Source of the DNA: a virus
Strand: one strand, 5' to 3'
Length of the DNA: 31,875 nucleotides
IMG/VR virus record: IMGVR_UViG_3300020202_000181
Location: 1-31,875 of that record
The notes below the pieces were generated by a model. That model worked only from the letters and a program-made list of their open reading frames with translations. It searched no databases and had not been told where the DNA came from. Each line of letters starts with the position of its first letter. Position 1 is the first letter of the stretch. A program made the position numbers and the translations under genes. Below are positions 12,844-29,289 of the stretch, piece by piece.

Positions 12844-12852
12844 TACATCTTC

Positions 12853-12961: not shown

Positions 12962-12964
12962 TTG

Positions 12965-12994: not shown

Positions 12995-12997
12995 CCA

Positions 12998-13025
12998 TTA
13001 CACGAGCTGTTGCACAGAGTATAAC
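12998..13025 (+). promoter_or_regulatory. Candidate early promoter 2
   Basis: TTACAC (12998-13003), 16-bp spacer and TATAAC (13020-13025). It overlaps the likely start region of promoter 1. Transcription would begin near 13032, a few bases before the AAGGAG ribosome binding site of the first early gene. Confidence 0.4.
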
Positions 13026-13049
13026 ATCGTCGGAAAAGGAGCCATCGTC

Positions 13050-13223
13050 ATGTTACTCACCACTGAGACAAAACGTTACGTTTACGTAGAGGATAGGAAT
13101 GGCCATACGTCGTTAATTGGTCATGAACAACCATCAACCATCTATAGGCAACTGATGGAAAATTATAGATTGGTGGCGGTGAAACGCAGCCATCGGGACT
13201 ATGTCGTTTTGAAGGTGAGCTAA
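13050..13223 (+). CDS. 57-aa early protein, unknown function
   Basis: ATG 13050 has AAAAGGAG eight bases upstream. The product (MLLTTETKRYVYVEDRNG, later RQLMENYRLVAVKRSHRDYV) is a compact alpha/beta protein with basic C-terminal strand. As first gene after the early promoters it is a good candidate for an early host-interaction protein. No family is recognised. Confidence 0.65.
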   Translation: MLLTTETKRYVYVEDRNGHTSLIGHEQPSTIYRQLMENYRLVAVKRSHRDYVVLKVS

Positions 13224-13224
13224 C

Positions 13225-13653: not shown

Positions 13654-13654
13654 C

Positions 13655-14110
13655 ATGGCTACGATACATCACACGCGAGAGTGTCTTTCTAAGGGCATCA
13701 ATAAGGGCTGTCCTGTGTGCGAGCCAATCAATCAGAGGTTGAAAGCCAGCGAAGCGGGGGCGAACGCAGAAAGTGAGGCCGTAAGGCGTGAGCGAAGCGA
13801 ACATACGCCGACGCCGTGGAGGGCAGAAAACGATCCCTTGGGACGTTTCACGATCAAGGAAGGCGGCATTGTAGTGGCGCAGGGTGTCCACGCTGAGTTC
13901 GCTCCACGCATCGTACGAGCCGTCAATTCCCATGAGGGATTGATTCAGGAACTTAATCACCTCATCGCCACACTTGAATCTGTAAGAGCAAACGTGGATA
14001 GCCCGGAGAAATCCCTTAAGGGTAGTTGGTATTCGTTTGACCACATGATCTCCGACGACATCTCACGGACGAGGAAGGCCATCGCACAAGCCGAAAGGGA
14101 GGGGAAATAA
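13655..14110 (+). CDS. Small early protein with N-terminal Cys cluster
   Basis: 151 aa from ATG 13655, preceded by AGGAGG. N-terminal HHTRECLSKGINKGCPVCEP may bind zinc, then a low-complexity linker (SEAGANAESEAVRRERSE), then HTPTPWRAENDPLGRFTI, a start motif common to a family of phage proteins (HTPTPWR). The end is helical with several Arg. The chain could be a fusion of a zinc module to the HTPTPWR family. Function is unknown. Confidence 0.7.
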   Translation: MATIHHTRECLSKGINKGCPVCEPINQRLKASEAGANAESEAVRRERSEHTPTPWRAENDPLGRFTIKEGGIVVAQGVHAEFAPRIVRAVNSHEGLIQELNHLIATLESVRANVDSPEKSLKGSWYSFDHMISDDISRTRKAIAQAEREGK

Positions 14111-14111
14111 C

Positions 14112-14312
14112 ATGGCTTATCGTATTCTTCGCTTCTTCTCGGATGGGCGTCCGGCAGAGCGTGTGAAAGTGGTTTCTACGCTGGAACTCGCTCGCTTGCA
14201 CTGTAACAGCCCTTTAACAAAAGGCGTGTTGCGTTCTGGCGTGAAGTGGTTTGACGGCTGGCGGGAAATTAAGGGACGCACGGTTAAGAAAGTTTTAACG
14301 GGAGGGAAATAG
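14112..14312 (+). CDS. 66-aa basic hypothetical protein
   Basis: ATG 14112 with AGGGAGGGGAAATAAC upstream, one base after the previous stop. The product is basic (MAYRILRFFSDGRPAERVK, later GWREIKGRTVKKVLTGGK), alpha/beta in pattern. No family is recognised. It belongs to the uninterrupted early operon. Confidence 0.6.
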   Translation: MAYRILRFFSDGRPAERVKVVSTLELARLHCNSPLTKGVLRSGVKWFDGWREIKGRTVKKVLTGGK

Positions 14313-14313
14313 C

Positions 14314-14487
14314 ATGCGCACATTCAAGGTAACTTTTGAAGACGGCAACCACCTCTACACGGGTTTCAATGGGACGTTAGAAGATGCGAAGCGATACTAC
14401 GTTGGTCAAATCTTTAATTTTGGTGACAGCGACGAACACCCCAAAGACCTACTAGTTAAAGGCGCGGCTGTGGAAGAGGTACTGTAA
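14314..14487 (+). CDS. 57-aa acidic hypothetical protein
   Basis: ATG 14314 with GGGAGGGAAATAGC upstream. The product begins MRTFKVTFEDGNHLYTGFNG and continues with TLEDAKRYYVGQIFNFGDSD and a VKGAAVEEVL end. It resembles a small beta-alpha-beta domain that is common among phage early proteins. No function is recognised. Confidence 0.6.
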   Translation: MRTFKVTFEDGNHLYTGFNGTLEDAKRYYVGQIFNFGDSDEHPKDLLVKGAAVEEVL

Positions 14488-14489
14488 AT

Positions 14490-14585
14490 ATGGACCTCCT
14501 CCGTACCATCCTAGGAGCAACGTTGTTTGGTATGGGGTATTACGTTGTACTGCTGTGGAATAACATGCCCATTTGTGGGCGATAG
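14490..14585 (+). CDS. 31-aa membrane peptide
   Basis: ATG 14490 follows the previous stop by two bases. The peptide (MDLLRTILGATLFGMGYYVV, then LLWNNMPICGR) has one hydrophobic segment of about 17 residues. No good ribosome binding site is visible, so it would depend on coupling to the upstream gene. It may be a small membrane protein or a chance frame. Confidence 0.35.
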   Translation: MDLLRTILGATLFGMGYYVVLLWNNMPICGR

Positions 14586-14593
14586 GGGGAAGT

Positions 14594-14797
14594 ATGGTTC
14601 AGAATATTAATCATTGTGATCACGGGCACGCGACAACGGATGAAGTTCGGGCATTGCCTACGGGCGGAGACGCGCAGGTGATTATTTGTTATCGCCATTA
14701 TCTAAAAGAGTATGACTGGAGAAAATCGCAAATTGCGAACGGTGTGCCGTTTCAGTTGCCGGAGTGGGAATCATTACCGATTTATACGGGAGAATAG
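14594..14797 (+). CDS. 67-aa Cys/His microprotein
   Basis: ATG 14594 is preceded by AGGGGGAAGT. HCDHGHATTDEV and IICYRHYLKEYDW give a C-H-H ... C-x2-H zinc-type layout, shared with the proteins at 15779 and 16074. It is the last gene before the structured intergenic element at 14805-14882. No family is named. Confidence 0.65.
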   Translation: MVQNINHCDHGHATTDEVRALPTGGDAQVIICYRHYLKEYDWRKSQIANGVPFQLPEWESLPIYTGE

Positions 14798-14804
14798 ATT
14801 TAAA

Positions 14805-14882
14805 GGCGGATGAAAGTAAACAGGCATAGCGTCAGAGGCTCAGCCGGGAAGCTTAAGCTTCAGGGGTAACTGGCCATCCGCT
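14805..14882 (+). ncRNA. Candidate structured RNA element
   Basis: An 8-bp closing stem, GGCGGATG (14805-14812) with CATCCGCT (14875-14882, one G-T pair), encloses 62 bases. Inside are GGC/GCC (14837-14845), a perfect 14-bp palindrome GAAGCTTAAGCTTC (14848-14861) that folds as GAAGC-TTAA-GCTTC, and CAGGGGTAACTG (14861-14872). A T-run (GATTTT) follows the closing stem. It starts seven bases after a stop codon. It is not a tRNA: the T-arm consensus is missing. It could be a riboswitch-like leader, an attenuator or a small RNA. Confidence 0.4.
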
Positions 14883-14971
14883 GATTTTAGTTAGTAGTTG
14901 ATATGGGAGCGCGATGAGCAGCCATTACGCGCAAGCGTGCGGAACGAAGTGACCAGTAGAAGGGAGGGAAG

Positions 14972-15412
14972 ATGATTTCAAAAGATAAATGGGTTTGGAT
15001 GCCTCATGCCGCACATTTGATTGTAGGGAGCCGCTGCCGCTTTCATTTGGCTACGGTCGTTGGTCCCTATCTCGTTTCCACGGTTGGCGAGTACATGCCG
15101 GATTCCCAGGTGCGGGAGATTTTAGCGAGTAGCCGGGGCATAACGTTAAACGGACGCGGCGACGAACGCGAAGCGGACTTCATGAAGAAGCACGGGTTCG
15201 AGGAGATCGGATGCGACCGGAAATATGAAACGATGGTTTTCCGGGCCGTAAAGTCGTCGCACGGTTGTTGCCCCTTCGAAATGCGGGATGCCTCAGACCT
15301 TGATTTTGAGGGCTACAACGACCCGGCGGACGCCTACAAAGGGCACCTGAAGATGTGCGAGAAGTGGGCTAAGACACGCTTAAAGACTTCCACCCCACGT
15401 AAGGGGCGGTAA
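14972..15412 (+). CDS. Conserved phage protein, unknown function
   Basis: 146 aa. It starts MISKDKWVWMPHAAHLIVGS, continues CRFHLATVVGPYLVSTVGEY, KKHGFEEIGCDRKYETMVFR, then CCPFEMRDASDLDFEGYNDP and DAYKGHLKMCEKWAK. These blocks are familiar from a conserved phage protein of unknown role that occurs in small-gene operons. Several Cys and His could bind metal. GAAGGGAGGGAAG precedes ATG 14972. It begins a new gene run after the structured element, possibly under its control. Confidence 0.75.
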   Translation: MISKDKWVWMPHAAHLIVGSRCRFHLATVVGPYLVSTVGEYMPDSQVREILASSRGITLNGRGDEREADFMKKHGFEEIGCDRKYETMVFRAVKSSHGCCPFEMRDASDLDFEGYNDPADAYKGHLKMCEKWAKTRLKTSTPRKGR

Positions 15413-15431
15413 CGCCAAGGAGGGAGAGACT

Positions 15432-15518
15432 ATGGATACTTTCAGATGCTTGGATTGTGGCGGGGAGACGTGCCAGCATGGAACGTGCCTCCTCTGTATT
15501 TTAGACGCCCTGCGTTAG
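15432..15518 (+). CDS. 28-aa zinc-ribbon microprotein
   Basis: ATG 15432 has a very strong AAGGAGGGAGAGACT upstream. The peptide has CLDCGG, TCQHG and CLLC: five Cys and a His in 28 residues, a complete zinc-finger spacing. The strong ribosome binding site for so short a product argues that it is translated. It is too short for most gene callers. Confidence 0.55.
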   Translation: MDTFRCLDCGGETCQHGTCLLCILDALR

Positions 15519-15527
15519 GAGGGGAGA

Positions 15528-15782
15528 ATGAGTATTCCCAACGGAATGTTTGTCGTCGGAAACAAGCTGATGACGGTCTGCGGATGGTGCGAAAAAGTCG
15601 TTCGGGTCGATAAGCCGATTATCGGGAGCTTTCACCTTTGCTTAACGGACGAAGAAAAAGAACGGAAGTCGGCAGATTTGCGGGAACGCTTAAAGAGGCA
15701 ACGGGCGACCTTTCGGGATCGTCTTGGTTCTGCTGGATCAGGCCAACCCGCGAAGCCTAGCGGCTCGGAGGCGAAGGGATGA
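15528..15782 (+). CDS. 84-aa protein with CxxC and basic tail
   Basis: ATG 15528 follows AGGAGGGGAGA. A VCGWCEK pair plus FHLC forms a likely zinc site, then a basic helix (EKERKSADLRERLKRQRATF) and a Gly/Pro/Ser tail. Basic helix plus zinc finger suggests nucleic acid or RNA-polymerase binding; this is inference. Confidence 0.6.
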   Translation: MSIPNGMFVVGNKLMTVCGWCEKVVRVDKPIIGSFHLCLTDEEKERKSADLRERLKRQRATFRDRLGSAGSGQPAKPSGSEAKG

Positions 15783-15919
15783 CGATAGAGAATCCGCCCA
15801 TTTTTGCCGTGTCATATAAGTGCGGCTGTTACGAATCACGCCTAAAGGGAAAACTCTATCAGGCGATCCGTTGCGCCAAACACAAGAGAAAGAAGAAAGA
15901 ACGGAGGCCAAGAGGATGA
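15779..15919 (+). CDS. 46-aa CxC/CxxH microprotein
   Basis: ATG 15779 overlaps the TGA of the previous gene (ATGA). YKCGCYESRLKGK and RCAKHKRKKKERRPRG give Cys-x-Cys ... Cys-x2-His and a very basic tail. The layout parallels 14594 and 16074. No family is recognised. Confidence 0.55.
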   Translation: MTIENPPIFAVSYKCGCYESRLKGKLYQAIRCAKHKRKKKERRPRG

Positions 15920-16077
15920 CAACCTTAGATGAACTCTTGCGAGACGCGATCCGGGAAAAGCTCATTGCTGATTCGGACGGTCCCTATGAAATCACGGGCG
16001 GCCTTATCGAACAAAAGATGATCGTTCTGGCCCGTAAACTTGTGGGGTTACTTGGCGAACAGGAGGGGAAGGGATGA
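15916..16077 (+). CDS. 53-aa helical hypothetical protein
   Basis: ATG 15916 overlaps the previous TGA (ATGA). MTTLDELLRDAIREKLIADS, then GPYEITGGLIEQKMIVLARK. A short helix-strand-helix protein, no motif. GCCAAGAGG just upstream serves as ribosome binding site. Confidence 0.6.
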   Translation: MTTLDELLRDAIREKLIADSDGPYEITGGLIEQKMIVLARKLVGLLGEQEGKG

Positions 16078-16205
16078 AGTGTTCATTTTGTGAAGGAATC
16101 GCTGTAGCAGGTATGGGGCCAGCAACCGGAGCAACAATAAGATTCTGCGCCATTCACCAATTCTTAATGGACGCTATCCGAAAGGCATTACAGGAGGGGA
16201 AGTAA
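16074..16205 (+). CDS. 43-aa CxxC/CxxH microprotein
   Basis: ATG 16074 overlaps the previous stop and has AGGAGGGGAAGGG upstream. MKCSFCEGIAVAGMGP and RFCAIHQFLMDAIRKAL: Cys-x2-Cys, 18-residue gap, Cys-x2-His. This is the clearest of the CxxC/CxxH set. Probably a single zinc knuckle; role unknown. Confidence 0.6.
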   Translation: MKCSFCEGIAVAGMGPATGATIRFCAIHQFLMDAIRKALQEGK

Positions 16206-16234
16206 GGTTATGGATGCGAAAGGAGCCGAATAAC

Positions 16235-16405
16235 ATGCCTTACATTAGCCTTGAAGACCTAAGCAAGATCAAAGAAGTACAAGCGTTAGTACAGGTGGCG
16301 GAAGGCATGGTCCGATGGGCGCACTGCGAGTTTGATGAGACGTTCATCGCTCTGGCGACTCTAGAGGGAGCCCTTAAACCCTTCCAGAAGGAAAAAGGGA
16401 AATGA
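16235..16405 (+). CDS. 56-aa helical protein
   Basis: Start chosen at ATG 16235, which has AAAGGAGCCGAATAAC upstream; an in-frame ATG at 16214 lacks one. MPYISLEDLSKIKEVQALVQ is helical, then EGMVRWAHCEFDETFIALAT and a basic end. No family recognised. Confidence 0.55.
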   Translation: MPYISLEDLSKIKEVQALVQVAEGMVRWAHCEFDETFIALATLEGALKPFQKEKGK

Positions 16406-16551
16406 AGTTTCTAGCATTTGTCACAGCTGTAGCACTACTGTTGGTTATGGTAGCCACCTTCCCCATTAGTTTTATGTGCTATGCTATATGGGAACGTTAT
16501 TTTTATGGGAGGGGTAAGAAATGGGGCGAGAAGCAACGCACGACATCGTAG
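16402..16551 (+). CDS. 49-aa single-pass membrane protein
   Basis: ATG 16402 overlaps the previous TGA. One hydrophobic segment (residues 3-30, FLAFVTAVALLLVMVATFPI and onward) is followed by a basic/aromatic tail (WERYFYGRGKKWGEKQR), so N-out/C-in or signal-anchor topology is likely. It overlaps the next gene by 31 bases in another frame. Candidate for a small membrane toxin, holin-like or exclusion protein; unproven. Confidence 0.5.
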   Translation: MKFLAFVTAVALLLVMVATFPISFMCYAIWERYFYGRGKKWGEKQRTTS

Positions 16552-16802
16552 TTATAAAGCAGATAAAGCTAGAGGACATCCGACCGCAGCGCGTCGGCAA
16601 GCTCGATACTAAAATCGTCAAACAGGCGGCGAAGTTGAAAAAGAATAGCGGTTGTCAGCTGGATAGCAGCAAAATAACTTACGTTCACCTCGCTACGCTC
16701 GTGGCGAAACTACGTAAAGCTGGTCGCATCCCGCCTGATATTACGGTGATGAGACGTACCGAAGCAGACGGAAATATGAGTATGTACCTGGTCCGTAAGT
16801 AA
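16521..16802 (+). CDS. 93-aa basic hypothetical protein, last gene of operon
   Basis: ATG 16521 with GGGAGGGGTAAGAA upstream. IVVIKQIKLEDIRPQRVGKL, then KQAAKLKKNSGCQLD and HLATLVAKLRKAGRIPPD, RTEADGNMSMYLVRK. Basic, alpha/beta. It is followed by a terminator ten bases after the stop. No family recognised. Confidence 0.65.
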   Translation: MGREATHDIVVIKQIKLEDIRPQRVGKLDTKIVKQAAKLKKNSGCQLDSSKITYVHLATLVAKLRKAGRIPPDITVMRRTEADGNMSMYLVRK

Positions 16803-16811
16803 CAACAAACC

Positions 16812-16848
16812 TGGCGCATGTGTACCTCGCTATCCATGCGCCATTTTT
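16812..16848 (+). terminator. Rho-independent terminator
   Basis: TGGCGCATG (16812-16820) and CATGCGCCA (16835-16843) make a perfect 9-bp stem, followed at once by TTTTT (16844-16848). It ends the early operon that begins near 13050. The loop carries CCTCGCTAT, repeated just after the T-run (16852-16860). Confidence 0.88.
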
Positions 16849-16859
16849 GTGCCTCGCTA

Positions 16860-16873
16860 TTAAACCGGTTGAA
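16860..16873. repeat. Palindrome copy 1 (TTAAACCGGTTGAA)
   Basis: Imperfect 14-bp palindrome with one mismatched pair, sharing AACCGGTTGAAT with the copy at 17001-17014, 141 bases downstream. The two copies flank a 19-codon frame between a terminator and the next gene. Operator candidate. Confidence 0.6.
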
Positions 16874-16930
16874 TGAGACTACAGTGCAAAAAATTTTGGA
16901 CCAAGAAATATGACTTTCAATGGAGGACAT

Positions 16931-16990
16931 ATGCATTACGTGCAGTTTACGTATGACGCGGATTACTTCGTGCTGTACAGCATGAATTAG
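16931..16990 (+). CDS. 19-codon leader-peptide-like frame
   Basis: ATG 16931 preceded by TGGAGGACAT; the peptide reads MHYVQFTYDADYFVLYSMN and ends in TAG. Aromatic-rich (four Tyr, two Phe). It lies between the two palindromes upstream of 17046. It could be a regulatory leader peptide or chance. Confidence 0.3.
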   Translation: MHYVQFTYDADYFVLYSMN

Positions 16991-17000
16991 GTCAAGGCAG

Positions 17001-17014
17001 TTCAACCGGTTGAA
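17001..17014. repeat. Palindrome copy 2 (TTCAACCGGTTGAA)
   Basis: Perfect 14-bp palindrome, 32 bases before ATG 17046. With copy 1 at 16860 it forms a pair of probable protein-binding sites controlling the gene block that starts here. Confidence 0.65.
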
Positions 17015-17045
17015 TAAGTAGTTCCTATGGGAGGAGGATGAAGGC

Positions 17046-17243
17046 ATGTACGACGATAGCCCGTCTAGTTTCTGGTACGAACCACCGCAGCACCATGAGT
17101 TGTGCGACTGTGAAAATTGCCATTACGGAGGAGGACACGACGATGAAGAACAGTATTGGAATGACAACGGATGTGCAGCTTGCAGCGAGCGATTGCGAGA
17201 AAGAGAAGAGGAAGAGGACGGTAACCTACCACCTGCTGTTTAA
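17046..17243 (+). CDS. 65-aa acidic Cys/His protein
   Basis: ATG 17046 has GGGAGGAGG nine bases upstream. HHELCDCENCHYGGGHDDEE and NGCAACSERL give paired Cys/His sets that may bind zinc, followed by an acidic run (EREEEEDG). The last 101 bases overlap the next gene in another frame. Both frames have strong ribosome binding sites. Confidence 0.55.
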   Translation: MYDDSPSSFWYEPPQHHELCDCENCHYGGGHDDEEQYWNDNGCAACSERLREREEEEDGNLPPAV

Positions 17244-17436
17244 CCTGAGCCGTCCGGTGTCCTTACGGTTCCTGCCTACCTGCATCAAGGCGCTGGAGAT
17301 GCTGGAAGAAGGACGCATTAACGACAAGGTGCGGGTGATGAAGGGTATGGGCAGAAAAACGGCTGGCGACATCATTCAATTGTTCCAGCTTGGGGAGTAT
17401 GTGCAATGGGCACCAAGTATATACGACAGGTGGTAG
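17143..17436 (+). CDS. 97-aa helix-hairpin-helix protein (alpha-CTD-like)
   Basis: ATG 17143 with GGAGGAGGACACGACG upstream. Residues about 40-95 (LPTCIKALEMLEEGRINDKV, then RVMKGMGRKTAGDIIQLFQL) resemble the helix-hairpin-helix of the bacterial RNA polymerase alpha C-terminal domain, including the final GxGRKxAxDI helix. The N-terminal 40 residues are basic. It could bind DNA or compete with alpha for promoter elements; that is inference. It overlaps the preceding gene by 101 bases. Confidence 0.6.
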   Translation: MKNSIGMTTDVQLAASDCEKEKRKRTVTYHLLFNLSRPVSLRFLPTCIKALEMLEEGRINDKVRVMKGMGRKTAGDIIQLFQLGEYVQWAPSIYDRW

Positions 17437-17444
17437 TATGGGTA

Positions 17445-17472
17445 TTGACAAAAGCAACAATCCCGTTATACT
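17445..17472 (+). promoter_or_regulatory. Sigma70-type promoter
   Basis: TTGACA (17445-17450), 16-bp spacer, TATACT (17467-17472). It shares GGGTATTGACAAA with the promoter at 29428. Transcription would start near 17479, leaving a 17-base leader with GGAGGAGG before ATG 17496. Confidence 0.7.
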
Positions 17473-17495
17473 TCAAGCAACGGAGGAGGAACAGT

Positions 17496-17711
17496 ATGAA
17501 CTATACATTAAGTGAACTTCTGACGTTCTACCTCGATGAGTATGCGAGGGCGCAGGCATTGTACGACTTTGCCGTTGATGAGTGTGAGGAGAGACGGGCG
17601 TATATGAGCATTTGGGAAATGGAAGAGCGGGAGGCGGAGATCGAGCGATATGAGACGTTGGCCGCGCTGTTTACCAATCTCGTGCGGGAACGGAAGGCGA
17701 AACATGCTTAA
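17496..17711 (+). CDS. 71-aa acidic helical protein
   Basis: ATG 17496, GGAGGAGGAACAGT upstream. MNYTLSELLTFYLDEYARAQ, then ECEERRAYMSIWEMEEREAE: amphipathic, coiled-coil-like throughout. First gene under the 17445 promoter. No family recognised. Confidence 0.65.
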   Translation: MNYTLSELLTFYLDEYARAQALYDFAVDECEERRAYMSIWEMEEREAEIERYETLAALFTNLVRERKAKHA

Positions 17712-17820
17712 GTTTTTACAACGCCTCCTGATAGCTCTGGAAGGCATACGCGAAGAGCTGGCGATTATGAATACAAACGGAATTGTGGTGTATGGCGGCG
17801 AAACGAGCGAAGAAAACTAG
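17704..17820 (+). CDS. 38-aa hypothetical peptide
   Basis: ATG 17704 overlaps the previous stop by eight bases. MLKFLQRLLIALEGIREELA, a short amphipathic helix, then NTNGIVVYGGETSEEN. It overlaps the next gene by 29 bases. Could be a translational bridge. Confidence 0.4.
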   Translation: MLKFLQRLLIALEGIREELAIMNTNGIVVYGGETSEEN

Positions 17821-18028
17821 CGAGATTGATTTGAAAGACCTTTCGGTACGACGTGTGAAGGGTGGGTTTAGAGTGAGACGCGTGTTTTATAGCGGAGCAA
17901 CGAAGTATTCACGGCTGTTTAGAAAGTGGTCGGACGTAATGCGGTGCTACCAAGAGGAATACGAAAAGTATGAACGGGCCATTGGTCGTGTTATGTTTGG
18001 TGGGGCAATTGACAGTTACAAGCTATAG
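17792..18028 (+). CDS. 78-aa basic hypothetical protein
   Basis: Start chosen at ATG 17792 (MAAKRAKKTSEIDLKDLSVR); a TTG at 17783 is also in frame. KGGFRVRRVFYSGATKYSRL then FRKWSDVMRCYQEEYEKYER: beta-hairpin then helix, basic. Overlaps the 3D-domain gene by 59 bases. No family recognised. Confidence 0.6.
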   Translation: MAAKRAKKTSEIDLKDLSVRRVKGGFRVRRVFYSGATKYSRLFRKWSDVMRCYQEEYEKYERAIGRVMFGGAIDSYKL

Positions 18029-18401
18029 GTCAATTCCTTCGCAGACCGACAGCACTCCTTATCACACTTCAATTGGGCAGCGTACGCACGCGCACGGCAT
18101 AGCCGTCTCACGCGATTTACTGGCGAACGGTACTTTCAAGTATGGGGATTTGGTGTATGTGGAGCAGGTTGGGTTTAAATTTGTGAACGATACGATGCAT
18201 GAGCGGTGGGTGAAGAGATTAGATGTATGGGTGGAAAGCTTAGAAGAAGAACGCCGCTTTCATCGGAAATTTAAAGGGAAACAGTTACGAGTATGGAAAG
18301 TGGAGAAGGTTTGGACGGAGCCATTAGGCGCAGGGAAGAGATTAAACGGAATATTGACGAAGCCAAGCGGCGCACTGCAAACGGTTTTCAGCGTCGAGTA
18401 A
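17970..18401 (+). CDS. 3D-domain protein (double-psi barrel)
   Basis: 143 aa. A short hydrophobic N-terminus (MNGPLVVLCLVGQL) leads into TVTSYRSIPSQTDSTPYHTS, then GIAVSRDLLANGTFKYGDLV and FVNDTMHERWVKRLDVWVES. This is the 3D domain with its three Asp (SRD, ND, LDV). The fold is shared with MltA/RlpA-like murein enzymes. Phages commonly carry it for cell-wall degradation or virion entry. The N-terminus could act as a membrane anchor. The C-terminal 45 residues are basic and overlap the next gene. ATG 17970 has AGAGGA 12 bases upstream; a TTG start further in is possible. Confidence 0.75.
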   Translation: MNGPLVVLCLVGQLTVTSYRSIPSQTDSTPYHTSIGQRTHAHGIAVSRDLLANGTFKYGDLVYVEQVGFKFVNDTMHERWVKRLDVWVESLEEERRFHRKFKGKQLRVWKVEKVWTEPLGAGKRLNGILTKPSGALQTVFSVE

Positions 18402-18511
18402 AGACCAAAGGCAGCGCACCAGAGGATAAGCTGTTCGCTGAGAAGTTGGAGAAGGCGAAAGAGGAAATACGAGCGTGGAAGAAGCGAGTAAAGAACCTGA
18501 AATCCCTCTAG
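18293..18511 (+). CDS. 72-aa coiled-coil protein
   Basis: ATG 18293 lies inside the end of the 3D-domain gene (109-base overlap). MESGEGLDGAIRRREEIKRN, then DEAKRRTANGFQRRVKTKGS and AEKLEKAKEEIRAWKKRVKN, a strongly charged helix. The ribosome binding site is weak. Moderately supported, real if translation is coupled. Confidence 0.45.
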   Translation: MESGEGLDGAIRRREEIKRNIDEAKRRTANGFQRRVKTKGSAPEDKLFAEKLEKAKEEIRAWKKRVKNLKSL

Positions 18512-19216: not shown

Positions 19217-19333
19217 ATGGCGTGGCAGGTGTTGCTCACCTCTCGCCACGGTAGGCAGCGGACGTACCGGGACGGTCAGTTGTACGAGGAGTGGTGCTTA
19301 TGTTGTGGAGGAACGTTGTGGCGAAAGGACTAA
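19217..19333 (+). CDS. 38-aa hypothetical peptide
   Basis: ATG 19217, weak AGGG upstream. MAWQVLLTSRHGRQRTYRDG then EEWCLCCGGTLWRKD, a CLCC cluster near the end. It overlaps the next gene by 34 bases. Low to moderate support. Confidence 0.4.
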   Translation: MAWQVLLTSRHGRQRTYRDGQLYEEWCLCCGGTLWRKD

Positions 19334-19830
19334 AGATTGGTGTGCTGGTGTTGCTGTGTGTTGCCGCCATGGCCTTGTTCCATCGCTGTCAGCAGGAGCG
19401 TAGGGAAACCTCTCTTACACCAGTACTGAAGGAAGGGGAACGTGAAAAGGTCATTGTCAAAAAAGGGGTTGTCACTGTCGTTCGAAGAGACGGAAGTACC
19501 AAGCGACATATCGGGGTGCGAGATGCGGCGGTTACTATTAAAGATGATGGCAGCGCGCAGATATACGCTCCGAGTAAGGGGTTCACGTTTGAGCCTGGCA
19601 TCGGTATCTATCAAGGCAAAGAAGCGGCGGCAGGGTTAGACATTCAGTTCGCCTATTGGAAGAGGTTTGGAGCGGTCGGTGGGGTGATGTACCAGCTGGA
19701 AGAGAAGAAGCTTAGGCCGTTCGTGGGTATCGGTTATTCGCTGGCCTTAATCGGCGCTAGCAATTCAACCGCTTTAATAGCAGTGGATGTGGAGAAGGAA
19801 ATATACGTTGGGCTGAGGGTGGCCTTCTAA
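19300..19830 (+). CDS. Membrane-anchored beta-rich protein
   Basis: 176 aa from ATG 19300, with GAGGA nine bases upstream. A single N-terminal transmembrane segment (GLKIGVLVLLCVAAMALF) is followed by a basic/polar linker, then beta-rich repeats: DDGSAQIYAPSKGFTFEPGI, AGLDIQFAYWKRFGAVGGVM, RPFVGIGYSLALIGASNS and a terminal LRVAF. Similar PSKGFTFEPG/WKRFG proteins occur in phages. The Phe-terminal beta pattern recalls small outer-membrane barrels. Roles such as spanin-like or surface protein are speculative. Confidence 0.7.
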   Translation: MLWRNVVAKGLKIGVLVLLCVAAMALFHRCQQERRETSLTPVLKEGEREKVIVKKGVVTVVRRDGSTKRHIGVRDAAVTIKDDGSAQIYAPSKGFTFEPGIGIYQGKEAAAGLDIQFAYWKRFGAVGGVMYQLEEKKLRPFVGIGYSLALIGASNSTALIAVDVEKEIYVGLRVAF

Positions 19831-20864: not shown

Positions 20865-21059
20865 ATGTCCGTCAGTAACACCCGTCGCATTAAGAAGGCC
20901 ATCGCCTTAGCAGAAAAGCGTGTAGAAAAACTCAAGCGCCGTATCGAAACACTCAAGCGCATTGGTGTGAATGAGATGTTTCATTTGGAACAGTTGTACT
21001 CAATGTTAGATCAGGTGGAGAAACAGGATGCCCCGAAAGAAACAGCCAGCCAACAGTAA
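20865..21059 (+). CDS. 64-aa coiled-coil protein
   Basis: ATG 20865 two bases after the previous stop. MSVSNTRRIKKAIALAEKRV then EKLKRRIETLKRIGVNEMFH, a basic heptad coil, and a QQ-rich tail. It overlaps the nuclease gene by 32 bases. No function recognised. Confidence 0.6.
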   Translation: MSVSNTRRIKKAIALAEKRVEKLKRRIETLKRIGVNEMFHLEQLYSMLDQVEKQDAPKETASQQ

Positions 21060-21660
21060 AGCCAGGGTTACGTCCATCCTCAGTTGCGTGGGGTTTAGGG
21101 ATGGGTTGATGTACTGGTATGGCAAGCACGGCACCGAAGAGTGTAACCGAGTGAAACGAGAATCGGCTGCTTTCGGCACTGCTGTACATAGCAAGGTGGA
21201 GGAGTACTTTCGTACCGGACAGCATCCTGAAGGGGAGGATAGAGCAGCGAGCTGTGCTCGTCTCATTGTGCGCTGGATACAAGATACCAGGTTTGTGCCG
21301 TTGCAGGATGAGGACGGGTTCTTCGTTGAGCGTGAAGTAGAGTCGGAGGAGGATGGGTTTGTGGGGCACCCTGACGCCATTGGTTATTTCATGGACAACC
21401 CCGACAAGCTGGGAGTGGTGGACTGGAAAACGTCCGGTCACATCGACGACAACTATCCTCTCCAGCTGGCTGCGTATGCCAAGGCCATTAAGGAGCAGTA
21501 CGGACATGACATCAGCTTTGGCGTCATTGTTCGGGTTGAGAAAGACCCCACCAAAACTCCGCAGTTTGAGATTGAAGAGTACGTCCCATTGGAACCGTAC
21601 TATCCGTTGTTCAAGTGTGCTAAGACACTGTACGACTTCTATAAGCGAAAGGCGGCATAG
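21028..21660 (+). CDS. PD-(D/E)XK nuclease (RecB/Cas4-like)
   Basis: 210 aa. The catalytic frame is visible: FGTAVHSKVEEYF (His54), GHPDAIGYF (Asp116), GVVDWKTSG (Asp132, Lys134) and LQLAAYAKAI (Gln146/Tyr150, the RecB QxxxY motif). It is a single-domain exonuclease or endonuclease of the RecB/Cas4/PDDEXK_1 type, without a C-terminal Fe-S cysteine cluster, so it is not a true Cas4. It lies between the OB-fold-like gene and the primase, suiting DNA end-processing or recombination in phage replication. Confidence 0.85.
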   Translation: MPRKKQPANSKARVTSILSCVGFRDGLMYWYGKHGTEECNRVKRESAAFGTAVHSKVEEYFRTGQHPEGEDRAASCARLIVRWIQDTRFVPLQDEDGFFVEREVESEEDGFVGHPDAIGYFMDNPDKLGVVDWKTSGHIDDNYPLQLAAYAKAIKEQYGHDISFGVIVRVEKDPTKTPQFEIEEYVPLEPYYPLFKCAKTLYDFYKRKAA

Positions 21661-23168: not shown

Positions 23169-23473
23169 AGCTTAGTAGGACGAAGCTTCGAACTCTTCGT
23201 GAGGTAGGAGGAGCAGACCCATTATGGACTTGGCAAGAGCCTACTAAAGCAAGGGTTGCATGGATTAGGGGTGCAGTGCGTAGGCAAATGCCTCGTGGCG
23301 TATGGGTTGAGATTAGGACGATGCGTTCATCGAATCCGTGGCTGCCGCACGCGATTGGATGGTATTGGCACGACACAATTAGACAAAGACGCCTTAAGCC
23401 AAAGTGGGACAGAAAACCAATCAAGGCTGACATCGAACGAGAGTGGCGAATTTATCAAAGGTTCAAGGTATGA
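23165..23473 (+). CDS. 102-aa basic hypothetical protein
   Basis: ATG 23165 overlaps the primase TGA (ATGA). MKLSRTKLRTLREVGGADPL, WTWQEPTKARVAWIRG and QMPRGVWVEIRTMRSSNPWL: basic, Trp-rich, alpha/beta. It ends in ATGA with DNA polymerase. Possibly a replisome accessory; no family recognised. Confidence 0.65.
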   Translation: MKLSRTKLRTLREVGGADPLWTWQEPTKARVAWIRGAVRRQMPRGVWVEIRTMRSSNPWLPHAIGWYWHDTIRQRRLKPKWDRKPIKADIEREWRIYQRFKV

Positions 23474-25206
23474 GTTACGAGTGGGGGCCAAGCAAGTACG
23501 GTATTACGCTGCGCGTCATAGGAGAATCGGATGTTTTATCTGAAGAAGAAACGAGAAGCTTACGAACGTCCATCTGCACCGTCGATGTGGAAGACGACGA
23601 GCGTGGGAATTTTGTCGGTGTTGGGCTTTATGGCGGTGGTGGGGTTGTATATTACTTTCGGCATTTGGGTAGTGAATTACGCAGCCTCCTTACTTCTGTA
23701 CGGCTCGTGGGCCATAACGTCAAGTATGACCTTCATCAGCTGAGGAAGTGGGGGATAAATGTATCTGTCCGCAATATTGTTTACGACACTCGCCTCGCCT
23801 TTTACGTTACCGATAGCTCTCAACCTAGTGTTGGTCTTAAGGATTTGGCTGAGAAGTATCTTGGCATAACCTACCCACACTACAGCGACATCGTTACCGG
23901 CAAAGGGAAGAAGAAGCTCACCTTAGACAAGCAGCCGGTGGAGCTGGTGGCAAATTATAACGCCATGGATTGTATTGCCACCTATCGCTTATGGCGTTTC
24001 TTTGAACGGAAGTTAAGTGCTCATCAGCGTCTGTATCTTGAAACTCTTGAGATGCCCACCATGCGCATCCTGTACGAGATGGAATGTAGGGGCATTAAGG
24101 TGGATGTGGCGTACCTTGGCGAATTAAATGAACGCTGGTTGGCAGAAGTAGACGCCATTAAGAAGAAGCTGATTGGAATGGCTGGCAAAGAATTCAATCC
24201 CAATTCACCGCAGCAGGTGAAAGAGGTGTTGCTGGCGCTAGGGCTGAAGGTGAAGGGGACGGACAAAAAGCACGACCTCTTCCCGTATCGCAGTCACAAG
24301 TTTGTGAAGACGTTACTGGAATACAAAGAGCTGGCGAAGCTTATTGGTACCTATACCAAACCGTTGATTGAACGGGCAATGCAGGATGAAGGCCACCGCA
24401 TCTATACCACGTTTAAACAAAACACCATTACCGGAAGGCTGTCATCCAGTGACCCCAACCTCCAGAACATCCCTGCTAAGACGGAGAAGGGAAGGCAGCT
24501 ACGCAGAGCTTTTGTAGCCAAGCCTGGGCATGTGTTTGTCATTGCTGACTATAGCCAAATTGATCTACGCGCCTTGGCTCACTTCTCACAAGAGCCTGCC
24601 TGGATGAACGCGTTCAATAGCGATGGTGATCCACACAAATTAACAGCAGCGGCGGTGTTTAAGGTGCCGTTGGAAGAGGTGACAAGTGAACAAAGACGAA
24701 CGGCGAAGACTCTTAACTTCACAATGGCGTACGGTAGCGGACCTGACAATGTTGCTTATGAAGTTGGATGTTCAGTTAAAGACGCCGAGGCGTACATTCA
24801 CTCGTTTTGGAAAGGTCTCGCCTCATTCTCTTCATGGCGTGCTGGTATACGAGAAGCTTGCTACCGGGGGAGAGGTATCGACACGCTTCTTCGCCGATTC
24901 ATCCCAATTCCGCATATCCGGGCCAGGGATGAGTTCGCCTCAGCTAGAGCTTTGCGTGAGGCTGTATCGTACATAGGCCAAGGTAGTCCGGCTGAAATAA
25001 TGAAACGCGCCATGATACGCCTTCGTATGGCGGGATACGTGCCGGTGTTGCAGGTGCACGACGAGTTGATTTACGAGGTGTCAGAAGACAAAGCTGAAGT
25101 TAGCACTAAGGTTATACAAGAAGCAATGGTGAATGCTGTTAAATTGCGTGTACCACTGGCAGTATCTTGTGGTACAGGTTATACTTGGGCTGAGAAGAAA
25201 GGTTAA
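23470..25206 (+). CDS. DNA polymerase I (family A) with 3'-5' exonuclease
   Basis: 578 aa from ATG 23470, which overlaps the previous stop (ATGA) and has AAAGG eight bases upstream; a GTG at 23443 would add nine residues. Exonuclease DEDY residues: VDVED (Asp39, Glu41), HNVKYD (Asp87), YNAMD (Asp167). Polymerase motifs: A DYSQIDLRALAH (360-371), B RRTAKTLNFTMAYG (409-422), C QVHDEL (528-533). Two unusual points: Asp365 where most family A enzymes have Glu, and Thr instead of Gly after the motif B Phe. It lacks a 5'-nuclease domain. It replicates the phage genome. Confidence 0.92.
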   Translation: MSYEWGPSKYGITLRVIGESDVLSEEETRSLRTSICTVDVEDDERGNFVGVGLYGGGGVVYYFRHLGSELRSLLTSVRLVGHNVKYDLHQLRKWGINVSVRNIVYDTRLAFYVTDSSQPSVGLKDLAEKYLGITYPHYSDIVTGKGKKKLTLDKQPVELVANYNAMDCIATYRLWRFFERKLSAHQRLYLETLEMPTMRILYEMECRGIKVDVAYLGELNERWLAEVDAIKKKLIGMAGKEFNPNSPQQVKEVLLALGLKVKGTDKKHDLFPYRSHKFVKTLLEYKELAKLIGTYTKPLIERAMQDEGHRIYTTFKQNTITGRLSSSDPNLQNIPAKTEKGRQLRRAFVAKPGHVFVIADYSQIDLRALAHFSQEPAWMNAFNSDGDPHKLTAAAVFKVPLEEVTSEQRRTAKTLNFTMAYGSGPDNVAYEVGCSVKDAEAYIHSFWKGLASFSSWRAGIREACYRGRGIDTLLRRFIPIPHIRARDEFASARALREAVSYIGQGSPAEIMKRAMIRLRMAGYVPVLQVHDELIYEVSEDKAEVSTKVIQEAMVNAVKLRVPLAVSCGTGYTWAEKKG

Positions 25207-25211: not shown

Positions 25212-25547
25212 ATGATAGTTAAAAGAACAAAAGAAGAACTGACCTTATGCCGTCTGTTACGAGAAGCGTGGAACAAGAGTTACTTGAAGTGGGATGCCTT
25301 GCGACGGGTGAAGATTGATGCGAACCAGTACCGCTGTGAACAGTGTAACAAGGTTTTTAAATTACGTGAAGTTCAGGTGGATCACAAGCTGCCTGTCATT
25401 GATCCTGAGAAGGGTTGGCAGGGCATCCAAATCTTCGCTGTGCGTTTATTCTGTCCTACTAAAAGTCTGCAGGTGCTTTGTATCGACACCTGCCACCAGC
25501 GAAAGACCAATAACGAGAACCGAACGCGGAGGAAAGATGCCGCTTGA
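25212..25547 (+). CDS. HNH endonuclease
   Basis: 111 aa, ATG 25212, AAAGG nine bases upstream. YRCEQCNKVFKLREVQVDHK gives the first Cys pair and catalytic Asp-His, then PVIDPEKGW and LQVLCIDTCHQRKTNNENRT with the second pair and terminal His/Asn. This is the compact HNH_5-like plan. It sits directly behind the DNA polymerase gene, a common insertion place for homing nucleases, or acts in packaging or repair. Confidence 0.85.
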   Translation: MIVKRTKEELTLCRLLREAWNKSYLKWDALRRVKIDANQYRCEQCNKVFKLREVQVDHKLPVIDPEKGWQGIQIFAVRLFCPTKSLQVLCIDTCHQRKTNNENRTRRKDAA

Positions 25548-25678: not shown

Positions 25679-26401
25679 ATGAAGCCAAAGGTTTTAGTTT
25701 TTGACATCGAGACGTACGGCGGACTGAAGGCCCACATGTCGGAAGTGGAGGCGTTTGGGTACAAGTGGTTGGGTGAAGGGAAGAAGGCTACGGTGTTGTC
25801 AGGTTTGGACTTTCCGAAAGAGTTTGAACGCGACTTTACCGACGATACGCCGCTGCTTAAAGCTCTGTCAGCAGTGTGGAACCAGGCGGACGCAGTGATA
25901 GCCCACTACGGCGAGCGGTTTGACCGACGCTTCCTCAACTCACGCATTGAGAAGAAGGGCTTGCCGCCATTGAAGCCTATGGTGCTGATAGATACATGGC
26001 GCATTTCCAAAGACAACTTTGCTCTGCCCGGCAACTCGCTGAACACGCTCCTTAAGTTCTTCAACTCGCCATACCAGAAGTTGGACCTTACTTACGAAGA
26101 ATGGCGTCGTGTGATGTTGGGCGATAAGAAGGCTCTGAAGAAGCTGAACGAGCACTGCTACTACGACGTGCTGGGTCTGGAGTGGGTGTTTCTTAACCAC
26201 CTCGCTCATTACACGAACAAGCTTCCCAACTTCAATTTGTTCGTGGACGTTAAGCACCCCGTCTGTCCTACCTGCGGATCTAAAGAGTTGAACAAAGAGG
26301 GGCGTAGCTACACACAAACCTCCGTTTGGCAGCAGTACAGCTGTAAGAATTGTCGCAAATGGTCGCGTGGCCCAGTGGAAGGAAAGGGGAGGGTGCGCTA
26401 A
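25679..26401 (+). CDS. RNase H-like 3'-5' exonuclease (YprB type) with zinc ribbon
   Basis: 240 aa, ATG 25679, GAGGGAGAA upstream. VLVFDIETYGG (Asp9, Glu11), AVIAHYGERFDRRFLNSR (Asp82) and HCYYDVLGLEWV (Asp163) form a DEDD site; a C-terminal ribbon VCPTCG with YSCKNCRKWSRG follows. YprB-like proteins act on nucleic acid ends; in phage this may proofread or process recombination intermediates. Its end overlaps the protease gene (TAATG). Confidence 0.85.
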   Translation: MKPKVLVFDIETYGGLKAHMSEVEAFGYKWLGEGKKATVLSGLDFPKEFERDFTDDTPLLKALSAVWNQADAVIAHYGERFDRRFLNSRIEKKGLPPLKPMVLIDTWRISKDNFALPGNSLNTLLKFFNSPYQKLDLTYEEWRRVMLGDKKALKKLNEHCYYDVLGLEWVFLNHLAHYTNKLPNFNLFVDVKHPVCPTCGSKELNKEGRSYTQTSVWQQYSCKNCRKWSRGPVEGKGRVR

Positions 26402-27021
26402 TGAAAACTGCTGCGTTGTTCTTTGCCAGTTTGCTGCTTACGGGTTGCATGGCGGATAGGTACATCACACCGATAGGTAATACCATAGATGCTGTTGTGG
26501 TGCTGCCTGGCGGTACAGGTACTTTCATCAGTGACAAAGGCCACATCCTCACCGCCGCTCATTTGTTCCCACCGAAGTATGACCGCCTTGTGAATGTGAA
26601 GGTGCGCTATAGCGACATTACCTACAAAGCCACCGTTCTGCACATTGATCGTAACGTGGACCTGGCGCTGTTGAAAATCAACGCTGACATCATCACCCCG
26701 CATGTGGCTGTGGCACCCATATACAGCACGAAGGTGGGGCAGGAAGTGTACGTCATCGGCCACCCCTTCAACCTCTTCTGGACCGTCACCACAGGCACCA
26801 TTAGTGCCACGGATCGCATTGGTATGGCGAGAGGTTTGCATCTTCAGACGAATGCTGCGATTAATAGCGGCAATAGCGGTGGTCCGGTGTTGAATTTAAA
26901 TGGCGAGCTGCTTGGTGTCGCGTCCTTTATCACCTCACCTGATTACGGCAACGTCGGCTTAGGGTTTGCTGTATCGCTCGAAGAAGTGCACACGTTTCTG
27001 GAGCAGTTTAGAGGGTTCTAA
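26401..27021 (+). CDS. Exported trypsin-like serine protease lipoprotein
   Basis: 206 aa from ATG 26401. A lipoprotein signal peptide MKTAALFFASLLLTGC ends in a lipobox with Cys16. The mature protein is a short DegP/S1C-type protease without PDZ: ILTAAHLF (His54), DRNVDLALLKI (Asp87), SGNSGGPVL (Ser159), plus VGLGFAVSLEEVHTFL at the end. Residue +2 after Cys is Met, so in a Gram-negative host it would tend to reach the outer membrane. A phage-made secreted protease is rare. Roles might be superinfection exclusion, envelope remodelling or cleaving host envelope proteins. Signal and triad are plain; role is unknown. Confidence 0.85.
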   Translation: MKTAALFFASLLLTGCMADRYITPIGNTIDAVVVLPGGTGTFISDKGHILTAAHLFPPKYDRLVNVKVRYSDITYKATVLHIDRNVDLALLKINADIITPHVAVAPIYSTKVGQEVYVIGHPFNLFWTVTTGTISATDRIGMARGLHLQTNAAINSGNSGGPVLNLNGELLGVASFITSPDYGNVGLGFAVSLEEVHTFLEQFRGF

Positions 27022-27512
27022 TGCGCTTCGCTTATGCTGATCCTCCCTACCTCGGTTGTGCGAAACGCTACGACCATCCAGAGGCAGGGATATGGGATAC
27101 CGTGCAAGCTCATCAAGATTTGATTGAGAAGCTTGTAAGCGAATATCCGGATGGGTGGGCATTGTCAGCGAGCTCGCCAAGTCTTCGCACTTTACTTTCT
27201 TTGTGTCCTGAGTCCGTGCGTGTGCTTGCTTGGGTAAAGCCGTTCTCTATTTTCAAGCCTGGAGTTGGCTTGGCTTATACATGGGAACCAGTAATTTTTT
27301 ACGGCGGCAGAAAAATTTCCAGAAAGCAGCCCACTGTGAAAGATCATTTAGTGTGCAATATCACCCTGAAGAAAGGTTTGTGTGGAGCAAAGCCATCAGC
27401 GTTTTGCGAATGGGTACTGCGCTGCCTTAATTACCAACCAGGAGATACCGTCGATGACTTGTTCCCAGGTACCGGCATCTTTGGGAAGGTGCTTAATGAG
27501 TTCGCGGCGTAA
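27021..27512 (+). CDS. Small DNA amino-methyltransferase (beta-type order)
   Basis: 163 aa, ATG 27021 overlapping the previous TAA (TAATG). Catalytic motif IV YADPPYLG lies at the start and the SAM-binding FPGTGIFGKVL at the end, the order of beta-class N6-adenine/N4-cytosine methyltransferases (motif IV before motif I). The middle (YTWEPVIFYGG) matches this fold. It has little room for a target domain. No cognate restriction enzyme is in the window, so it may protect phage DNA or mark it. Confidence 0.8.
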   Translation: MRFAYADPPYLGCAKRYDHPEAGIWDTVQAHQDLIEKLVSEYPDGWALSASSPSLRTLLSLCPESVRVLAWVKPFSIFKPGVGLAYTWEPVIFYGGRKISRKQPTVKDHLVCNITLKKGLCGAKPSAFCEWVLRCLNYQPGDTVDDLFPGTGIFGKVLNEFAA

Positions 27513-28041
27513 GAAGCCGTTCACCGTCTCCATCTACCTTGCCTGCGCCATGACAGGACGTACCGGCAAAGAGCTTTGGGATGAGCTGAGGATGCTACGC
27601 CCCATCTACGAGCAGCACGGCATTAAGGTGATTAGCCCCATTGAAGGTGAAGGCATTCCGTACAGCGATGCGCCGTTGCCAGATAGAACGGACAAGGACG
27701 GCACCCACATCTGGAAGGATAAGGACAAATTCAAAATACGAGAGGCTAATGTGTTCGTGTATCCGGGTTTAAGGCGTACCAGCCAAGGCGTGATGAAAGA
27801 GTACATGTACGCCCGTGGCGTGCTGTGGAGGCCGTCAGTAGGGGTGTACAAACCACCGCTTAAGGCTGGCTTTATTACCCGAGCGGAGGATGATGTTGTT
27901 TGCGCTTCCCACCAGGAAGCAGCCCTTACCATAGCTACGCGGTGGGGGAGTAAACGCAAGCGTTTGAAATGGCGGTTGGCGATGTTGAACAGGTCAATAC
28001 TGAAGTGGTTGGGATATCAGTTAAAGGAGTTGTGGCGATGA
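27496..28041 (+). CDS. Nucleoside deoxyribosyltransferase-like (DUF4406-like) protein
   Basis: 181 aa from ATG 27496, overlapping the methyltransferase end by 17 bases. TVSIYLACAMTGRTGKELWD, GIKVISPIEGEGIPYSD and FKIREANVFVYPGLRRTSQG followed by VMKEYMYARG: a Rossmann-like fold with the late Glu of the family. Such proteins handle nucleosides or nucleotides (2-deoxyribosyltransferase relatives). The C-terminal 40 residues are basic and extended. Could be involved in base salvage or modification; substrate unknown. Confidence 0.7.
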   Translation: MSSRRKKPFTVSIYLACAMTGRTGKELWDELRMLRPIYEQHGIKVISPIEGEGIPYSDAPLPDRTDKDGTHIWKDKDKFKIREANVFVYPGLRRTSQGVMKEYMYARGVLWRPSVGVYKPPLKAGFITRAEDDVVCASHQEAALTIATRWGSKRKRLKWRLAMLNRSILKWLGYQLKELWR

Positions 28042-28364
28042 CGGTTTGTAATACAACGGTTGATGTGAAGCGTGAGCACTTCCAAAAGTTCGCTGACCTG
28101 ATTAGCAATCAATTCTCCCATGGCGGCGACAAGTACGCCTTGCCTGGCTTCACCGATAGAGAAGCCACAGACATTATTTCTTCTGTGTTTGGTGGACCAA
28201 GCGAATTTGACTGGGTGCTAGGTACTATGACCAAGTACATTTTCCGCTTCAAGAATTTTCAGCGTGAGAAAGATTTACTGAAGATTGCCACCTACTGCTA
28301 CATCCTGTGGCTGAAGCAAGGGAACCATTTGAAAAACTCCCATGATGAGGATGTGGCGAAATGA
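28038..28364 (+). CDS. DUF3310-like phage protein
   Basis: 108 aa from ATG 28038 (ATGA with previous stop), AAAGGAGT seven bases upstream; an in-frame ATG at 27969 lacks one. GGDKYALPGF, then TMTKYIFRFKNFQREKDLLK and IATYCYILWLKQG are the conserved helix pair of DUF3310-type proteins, often near nucleotide metabolism genes. Ends in ATGA with the next gene. Confidence 0.65.
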   Translation: MTVCNTTVDVKREHFQKFADLISNQFSHGGDKYALPGFTDREATDIISSVFGGPSEFDWVLGTMTKYIFRFKNFQREKDLLKIATYCYILWLKQGNHLKNSHDEDVAK

Positions 28365-28477: not shown

Positions 28478-28822
28478 ATGCCCTACATTCACCCCTCAGA
28501 ACAATACGCAATTGAACAAGGCGCACAGCCCACTACTGTTGGACAGCTGAATTGGCTGATAACGAAAGAACTGATTAAGCGGTGGAAGGTACAGCCACGC
28601 TACACCACAGCTCACGCCCTGTGTCATGCCTTCGTAATGGAGCCTAAGAACAACGACTTCCTTAAGGCGCTGTCTAGGCATAACGCCCACTTCACCTGGA
28701 TGGACGTGCAAACAGCGGCCTACATGGCGTTTCAGGAATTTTATAGGCGTGTGGTGGCACGATACGAGCAGCAGAAGGCGAAAGAGAATGGCGATGTGTA
28801 TGAGAAGGTGGAGGTACGGTGA
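28478..28822 (+). CDS. DUF6899-like conserved phage protein
   Basis: 114 aa. MPYIHPSEQYAIEQGAQPTT then VGQLNWLITKELIKRW has the MPYI-P...G-LN start of this phage family. A FVMEPKNNDFLKALSRHN segment and the end (FYRRVVARYEQQKAKENGDV) are helical. ATG 28478 follows the previous stop directly and depends on coupling. Function unknown. Confidence 0.7.
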   Translation: MPYIHPSEQYAIEQGAQPTTVGQLNWLITKELIKRWKVQPRYTTAHALCHAFVMEPKNNDFLKALSRHNAHFTWMDVQTAAYMAFQEFYRRVVARYEQQKAKENGDVYEKVEVR

Positions 28823-29289
28823 GGCCGTCCTACGTCGTCCTGCACCATTCCCTTACCAAAGACCAGAAGGTTGTGGATTGGGACGCCATTACGAAGTACC
28901 ACATGCAGTACAACGGGTGGAAAAATAACGGTTATCACTACGGATGTGAATTTGACGGGGATCGCTACAAGATAAAGTACGGCCGACGTGAAGAGGAAGA
29001 GGGTGCCCATTGCAAAGATGCTGGGATGAACAACATGAGCATTGGCATTTGTATGGTGGGGGATTTTGACTTTGTGGCTCCAGATCCTAACCAACTCACC
29101 CTCACCGTAGACCTCATTCTGGATGTGATGCGGAGGTGGAACATTCGGCCAGATCACGTCATAGGCCACAGGGAAGCACAAGCGATGGCAGGCGTTCCGC
29201 CCCGCCTCCGTAAAACCTGCCCAGGCAAGCGCGTAAATATGGACGCCATTCGAGCGTTGTTGGCGTTTAAGGAACATACAGGAGATTAG
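28819..29289 (+). CDS. N-acetylmuramoyl-L-alanine amidase (endolysin)
   Basis: 156 aa, GTG 28819 overlapping the previous TGA (GTGA). Amidase_2 fold: YVVLHHSL (His9), GYHYGCEFDG, GICMVGDFD, HVIGHREA (His117) and RKTCPGKRV (Cys134). His9, His117 and Cys134 are the zinc ligands as in T7 lysozyme. It cuts the bond between MurNAc and L-Ala of peptidoglycan for lysis. There is no signal peptide or wall-binding domain, so release probably needs a holin (candidate at 18982). Confidence 0.9.
   Translation: MRPSYVVLHHSLTKDQKVVDWDAITKYHMQYNGWKNNGYHYGCEFDGDRYKIKYGRREEEEGAHCKDAGMNNMSIGICMVGDFDFVAPDPNQLTLTVDLILDVMRRWNIRPDHVIGHREAQAMAGVPPRLRKTCPGKRVNMDAIRALLAFKEHTGD

Follow-up and report, generated by a model that had tools for sequence, protein, structure and literature searches.

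Phages of Gram-negative bacteria act on the host envelope through holins, endolysins, spanins and small exclusion lipoproteins. Short exported trypsin-like proteases have already been annotated, without a function, in cultured rhizobial phages, and a trypsin-like protease has been mentioned for one phage cluster (PMC10783043); in the literature searched, with subscription journals outside its coverage, no experiments on exported trypsin-like proteases of phages were found. Among bacterial proteases of the HtrA type (MEROPS S1C), control of DegS resides in its PDZ domain, which gates the protease (PMC6737893). Here, we describe a gene of the virus record IMGVR_UViG_3300020202_000181 (31,875 bases, positions 1 to 31,875; hereafter the window), located at 26401..27021 on the plus strand, for which sequence, domain and fold searches predict an exported, PDZ-less, HtrA-type serine protease of 206 amino acids (aa). 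Together with 13 further phage proteins it forms a clade that, as judged from sequence, is PDZ-less and HtrA-type. We favor, with modest confidence, the reading that this protease acts on host envelope proteins, most plausibly aiding lysis.

A predicted lipoprotein protease reduced to its catalytic domain

The gene runs from an ATG at 26401 to a stop codon ending at 27021, and the coordinates, frame and residues given in the original prediction, made from the letters of the window, were exact. The ATG at 26401 was accepted as the start because a strong Shine-Dalgarno-like sequence, GGGGAGGG (26386..26393, plus strand, recognized by eye), places GGAGG 8 nt 5' of it. A signal peptide with the lipobox LLTGC is encoded at 26401..26448, the codon of Cys16 lying at 26446-26448. 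The protein agrees in full (C16, K2) with the PROSITE lipoprotein rule PS00013, which combines a lipobox, a Cys at position 15-35 and a positive charge within the first 7 residues, as did just 7 of the 402 called phage open reading frames (ORFs) of >=80 aa, a set that includes clade members. From these features the product is very probably a lipoprotein, and no other credible lipoprotein gene was seen in the window. According to the Lol rule, Asp at position +2 retains a lipoprotein at the inner membrane; the residue after Cys16 is Met, i.e., there is no such retention signal.

The catalytic domain spans residues 38-204 (26512..27012), as delimited by Pfam Trypsin_2 (residues 38-173; 95.3 bits against a cut-off of 27.6) and TIGR02037 (38-204). 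The triad is complete, with His54 (26560..26562), Asp87 (26659..26661) and Ser159 (26875..26877, in GNSGGP) embedded in the contexts TxxH, DLAL and GNSGG that characterize the HtrA/S1C catalytic domain. No PDZ domain was found in the protein by Pfam search, the catalytic domain ending at about residue 204 of 206, and the scores fall far below the cut-offs of full-length HtrA families (136 versus 416 bits for TIGR02037; 104 versus 423 for DegS). Thus, sequence and Pfam agree with the lipobox, the triad and the lack of PDZ that had been predicted.

In the AlphaFold2 model, built on a 14-row alignment (pLDDT 89.9, pTM 0.85), the chain consists of the signal helix and a single trypsin-like protease domain, whose best match in the PDB is DegS-deltaPDZ (TM 0.79, E 4e-17). 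Sequence matches include DegP, DegQ, DegS and HtrA1, and the catalytic domain is about one third identical to those of DegS and DegP. Since PDZ gates DegS, a protease that naturally lacks this domain is expected, by analogy, to be ungated. Such likeness could point to envelope stress control, whereby an unregulated DegS/DegP-like protease would trigger a sigma-E type response or clear misfolded periplasmic proteins, keeping the infected cell productive until lysis. The nearest solved folds, DegS-deltaPDZ and DegQ/DegP, and the shared third of the catalytic domain fit this explanation; however, lipid-anchored members should reside at the outer membrane, far from inner-membrane RseA, and the protease lacks the PDZ domains that DegP uses for client binding, so that we consider it quite improbable.

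A recurrent clade of short phage proteases

Relatives were obtained by profile scans of IMG/VR; viral contigs scanned with the protease or the exonuclease as a single query had yielded none. One profile scan returned 376 related stretches, and short trypsin-like proteases also occur in cultured Rhizobium phages; hence, the claim that proteases of this kind are rare in phages holds insofar as they are scarce, but they are recurrent. Thirteen further short PDZ-less proteins from uncultured phages were retained: L008 (record G001), L012 (G002), L013 (G003), L031 (G004), L102, L104, L105, L106, L107, L109, L112, L115 and L134. With the window protein they make up the 14 proteins or loci counted below, and the family ranges from 206 to 265 aa. 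Matches in INPHARED were mostly bacterial contamination, and three "Bacteriophage sp." records (MW462191, MT837774 and MT835589; L004, L005 and L006), which gave the best hits there, were dismissed as relatives, as they carry full-length bacterial HtrA genes beside housekeeping genes in what seems to be sequence of a bacterial chromosome. PADLOC matches to RT-Protease, LmuA and Avs1b reflected the shared trypsin fold only, and no such systems were seen around the protease gene.

The comparison with phage and bacterial S1C proteases, which the original prediction had proposed as a check, supports its enzymatic and export components. The His, Asp and Ser residues of the triad are invariant in all 14 phage proteases, and each one has an N-terminal hydrophobic segment or export signal, with the catalytic domain in every case predicted to lie on the side that is exported. 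The strict lipobox rule is passed by five (the window, L102, L105, L112 and L115), L008 and L106 are borderline, and the remaining relatives look membrane-anchored or plainly secreted. As the anchors vary, the common family trait is export and not lipidation; thus, an exported lipoprotein protease is a description that suits the window protein, with its HtrA-type domain, export signal and PS00013 agreement, but not the family as a whole. In the close pair L105/L112, dN/dS was 0.13, denoting purifying selection in that pair and suggesting that the protease is functional.

When 36 bacterial HtrA proteins and further phage proteases were included in the tree, the 14 phage proteins grouped in one clade (support 90/73), with support rising to 100/94 once three long-branch rows were left out. 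The branch of the window protein is long, and the tree does not fix its position within the phage clade. This raises the possibility of a casual acquisition, namely a truncated host HtrA gene gained recently and with no phage-specific role, an idea compatible with the long branch, with close relatives that lack the gene, and with the score of the window protein on a clade profile built without it, which at 183 bits practically equals that of the best bacterial HtrA (182 bits). Because of this equality, clade membership of the window protein relies on the tree, the architecture and the gene order taken together. On the other hand, the tree, also with the three long branches removed, puts the window protein in the phage clade; its best match, L008, comes from a phage (G001) related to the window by its capsid (69%), terminase (53%) and portal (44%); and adjacency to an exonuclease gene is common to distant phages. 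Moreover, the 80 best bacterial matches were HtrA-type, nearly all of the 37 inspected being much longer, while the few short reading frames among them looked truncated or lacked a signal, and no clade-level match (1e-60) was found in 398 Pseudomonadota genomes, at a threshold that detects 13/13 clade phages. Short PDZ-less bacterial proteases may be undersampled, and overall a casual acquisition appears highly unlikely.

Gene order and accessory distribution

The window carries typical phage genes. On its minus strand are terminase, portal and capsid genes, the last matching the N4-gp56 family below the cut-off, and on its plus strand are genes for a prim-pol/helicase, a PDDEXK nuclease, a family A polymerase, an HNH protein, an RNase-H-fold exonuclease, the protease and an amidase endolysin. 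The conserved gene order starts with the family A DNA polymerase (PolA, 23443..25206, plus strand; PF00476, 331 bits) and continues with an HNH endonuclease-like gene (25212..25547, plus), relatives of which, identified by hmmsearch, follow PolA <=2.7 kb upstream of the protease in 11/14 loci. The immediate upstream neighbor (25679..26401, plus) is a homologue of a DNA polymerase exonuclease subunit with RNase-H fold, as supported by phrog_403 (4e-47), PF13482 and synteny. The protease gene overlaps both neighbors by TAATG, as had been noted, and an exonuclease gene lies <=200 bp upstream in nine of the 14 loci, distant phages included, which upholds the view that the placement is not casual; in three of the remaining loci a metallophosphoesterase gene lies <=350 bp upstream. 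The stronger idea, that of an exonuclease invariably accompanied by the protease, was rejected, since among 80 exonuclease loci (70 with 1.5 kb of downstream sequence) the two genes were adjacent in two, both known clade members.

The downstream side is a different matter. The overlapping gene at 27021..27512 (plus) encodes DPPY (residues 8-11) and FPGTG, possibly marking a permuted methyltransferase, and its product has no Pfam, PHROG or NCBIfam match. Therefore, of the two neighbors named in the original prediction the exonuclease stands, whereas the methyltransferase label comes from motifs only, and the gene on that side is not conserved among relatives. Farther downstream, 1.8 kb 3' of the protease, is an N-acetylmuramoyl-L-alanine amidase (endolysin) gene (28819..29289, plus; PF01510, 75 bits; phrog_822). 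Peptidoglycan hydrolase genes (M15 or amidase) occur <=1.8 kb downstream of the protease in 5 of the 12 loci with enough room, and a DUF5675 gene <=2.3 kb downstream in five more of these 12. In G004 an M15 endolysin gene directly overlaps the protease gene, and the L102 and G001 proteases lie among small membrane proteins. Promoter and terminator scans of the window gave no more than chance, and no RNA family or tRNA was found in it.

Within this setting, the presence of the protease varies. G001 carries it, whereas G017 (39.7 kb; capsid 66% and terminase 53% relative to the window) has PolA and the exonuclease and lacks the protease. At the position of the protease in the related L102, G017 and G016 encode instead a 91-aa protein that is unrelated to it and has a membrane segment at its N-terminus; the slot was recognized by its flanks, on one side a small gene with a start at about "PISGEE" and on the other a "MPxSALP" gene, compared by eye on sequence similarity. 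Because closely related phages lack it, the protease is an accessory gene, and its position resembles a slot, adjoining the lysis genes, in which exported proteins can replace one another. We propose that in this phage clade the protease is an exchangeable gene, retained between the replication genes (PolA-HNH-exonuclease) and those for cell-wall hydrolases on the same arm.

This distribution also bears on superinfection exclusion, which the original prediction had offered, next to degradation of a host factor, as a possible role, and according to which an anchored protease would, early in infection, remove or clip a surface receptor or the DNA-entry protein of an incoming phage. Phage outer-membrane lipoproteins such as T5 Llp and the Cor proteins achieve exclusion by binding the receptor (PMC9586334), the protease has an accessory distribution, and its gene comes after the replication genes, possibly implying early expression. 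Nevertheless, the exclusion lipoproteins known are small binders with no enzymatic function, the protease has neither a receptor nor a tail gene as neighbor, and anchors that range from lipid to membrane to soluble do not point to a surface receptor. We regard superinfection exclusion as rather unlikely.

Several other features of these genomes were recorded. The product of window 19291-19830 has an N-terminal membrane segment, a C-terminus that looks strand-rich and no family match; in G001 and L102 its relatives are found a short distance 5' of the protease, and in G017 in the vicinity of the lysis genes. The DUF3310-like gene at window 27969-28364 encodes a protein 85.6% identical to one in L012/G002, a phage whose polymerase is only ~37% identical to that of the window, suggesting a recent exchange. 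At the other end, a glycosyltransferase-9-like gene (758-1783; ADP-heptose transferase type, by eye) and a methyltransferase-like gene (168-761) adjoin the capsid genes and are retained in every capsid relative checked. The record IMGVR_UViG_3300021061_000049 (22.8 kb; L335, L352, L353) matches the window at 100% identity across 18,507 bases (window 1-18507) and adds ~4.3 kb beyond its base 1, where a second glycosyltransferase-like gene lies together with genes probably encoding connector and tail proteins. In G017, the predicted protein of 38903-39685 (L349) starts with many tandem SQV(R/G/E/A) repeats.

Possible role in lysis and comparison with known systems

The favored reading, proteolysis of host envelope proteins, can be laid out as a series of steps. 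The protease would be exported via the Sec pathway, cleaved at Cys16 and lipidated, and with Met at +2 the Lol rule would send it to the outer membrane, on the inner face, in a Gram-negative host. Without PDZ, it would escape the peptide-gated control seen in DegS/DegP and remain constitutively active in the periplasm of the infected cell, cutting host envelope proteins and thereby weakening or remodelling the envelope; most plausibly, this would help final lysis. The lysis-linked use, taken by itself, is held only tentatively, and is favored because the protease gene lies beside endolysin and small membrane genes.

A more specific version holds that an outer-membrane-anchored, PDZ-free HtrA opens the outer membrane proteolytically when the cell lyses, in the role of spanins, with other small exported proteins replacing it in relatives. 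Its basis is that no spanin-like lipoprotein pair was seen in four protease-bearing contigs of 30-45 kb: a PS00013 scan of the window, G001, G003 and G004 found no o-spanin-like lipoprotein or paired ORF, with a pattern that is not fully sensitive and contigs that may be incomplete. We give this version little credence. Moreover, the rhizobial phage RHph_TM3_3_14B seems to have Rz/Rz1-type spanin genes in addition to a short exported protease, so that short phage proteases are not simply spanin substitutes, and the general idea of pure substitution is weakened.

The same phage weighs against the favored reading, as do other points. G016 and G017 lack the protease gene, so lysis in the lineage of the window can proceed without it; DUF5675, a frequent downstream neighbor, is a family of unknown function; the Gram-negative host is presumed; and protease activity is predicted from sequence. 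If the reading is true, a recurrent exported protease, stripped to its catalytic domain and held in a conserved place, would add periplasmic proteolysis to the tools with which phages act on the envelope, and the phages that carry it, whose relatives do not, offer a natural comparison.

Regarding known lipoprotein systems, spanins (Rz/Rz1, N4 gp60/gp60a) likewise include a phage lipoprotein encoded near lysis genes and acting at the outer membrane (PMC12642591), but they lack an enzyme domain and are encoded by a small pair of embedded genes, one of them for a partner in the inner membrane. An o-/u-spanin is a small non-enzymatic lipoprotein with an overlapping inner-membrane partner gene or with a C-terminal membrane helix; the protease, with its 206-aa enzyme domain and no paired lipoprotein ORF in the PS00013 scan, does not fit this description. 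T5 Llp and the Cor proteins are likewise lipoproteins encoded by phages, facing the periplasm from the outer membrane (PMC9586334), yet they are small and non-enzymatic, and llp adjoins the gene of the receptor-binding protein, whereas the protease has 206 aa, an enzyme domain and replication and lysis genes as neighbors, which sets it apart from exclusion lipoproteins.

Closer in kind are other phage proteases. Those of the rhizobial phages RHph_X2_25 (215 aa), RHph_TM3_3_14B (236 aa), RL2RES (230 aa) and 16-3 (p036, 299 aa, annotated as "typically periplasmic") are phage-encoded, short, PDZ-less by length and endowed with a hydrophobic N-terminus and a GxSGG/GQSGA serine motif. They differ in scoring 60-68 bits against the clade profile, under all HtrA, in having other gene neighbors and in showing no lipobox, and are taken as analogues of uncertain kinship. 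In two rhizobial phages, a conserved membrane protein that by eye looks like TolQ/ExbB/MotA is encoded directly 3' of the short protease (L344 5507-5932, L345 5534-5959). Marine phage proteases of ~340-380 aa (L011, L025, L047 and others) are phage-encoded, exported and trypsin-like, some with a lipobox, but occupy separate tree branches and carry a C-terminal extension. In a second family, marine and with phage proteases of ~365 aa (L025, L028, L043, L055, L067, L075 and others), the protease match is followed after ~450 bp by a relative of the PDDEXK nuclease of window 21028-21660.

Finally, DegS, DegP and DegQ of Gram-negative bacteria share with the window protease the chymotrypsin-like HtrA catalytic domain, the GNSGG motif, the triad and an exported location. 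In contrast to them, the window protease is phage-encoded, PDZ-less, 206 aa long and far under the curated DegS/DegP/DegQ cut-offs, with a predicted lipid anchor where DegS has a membrane helix.
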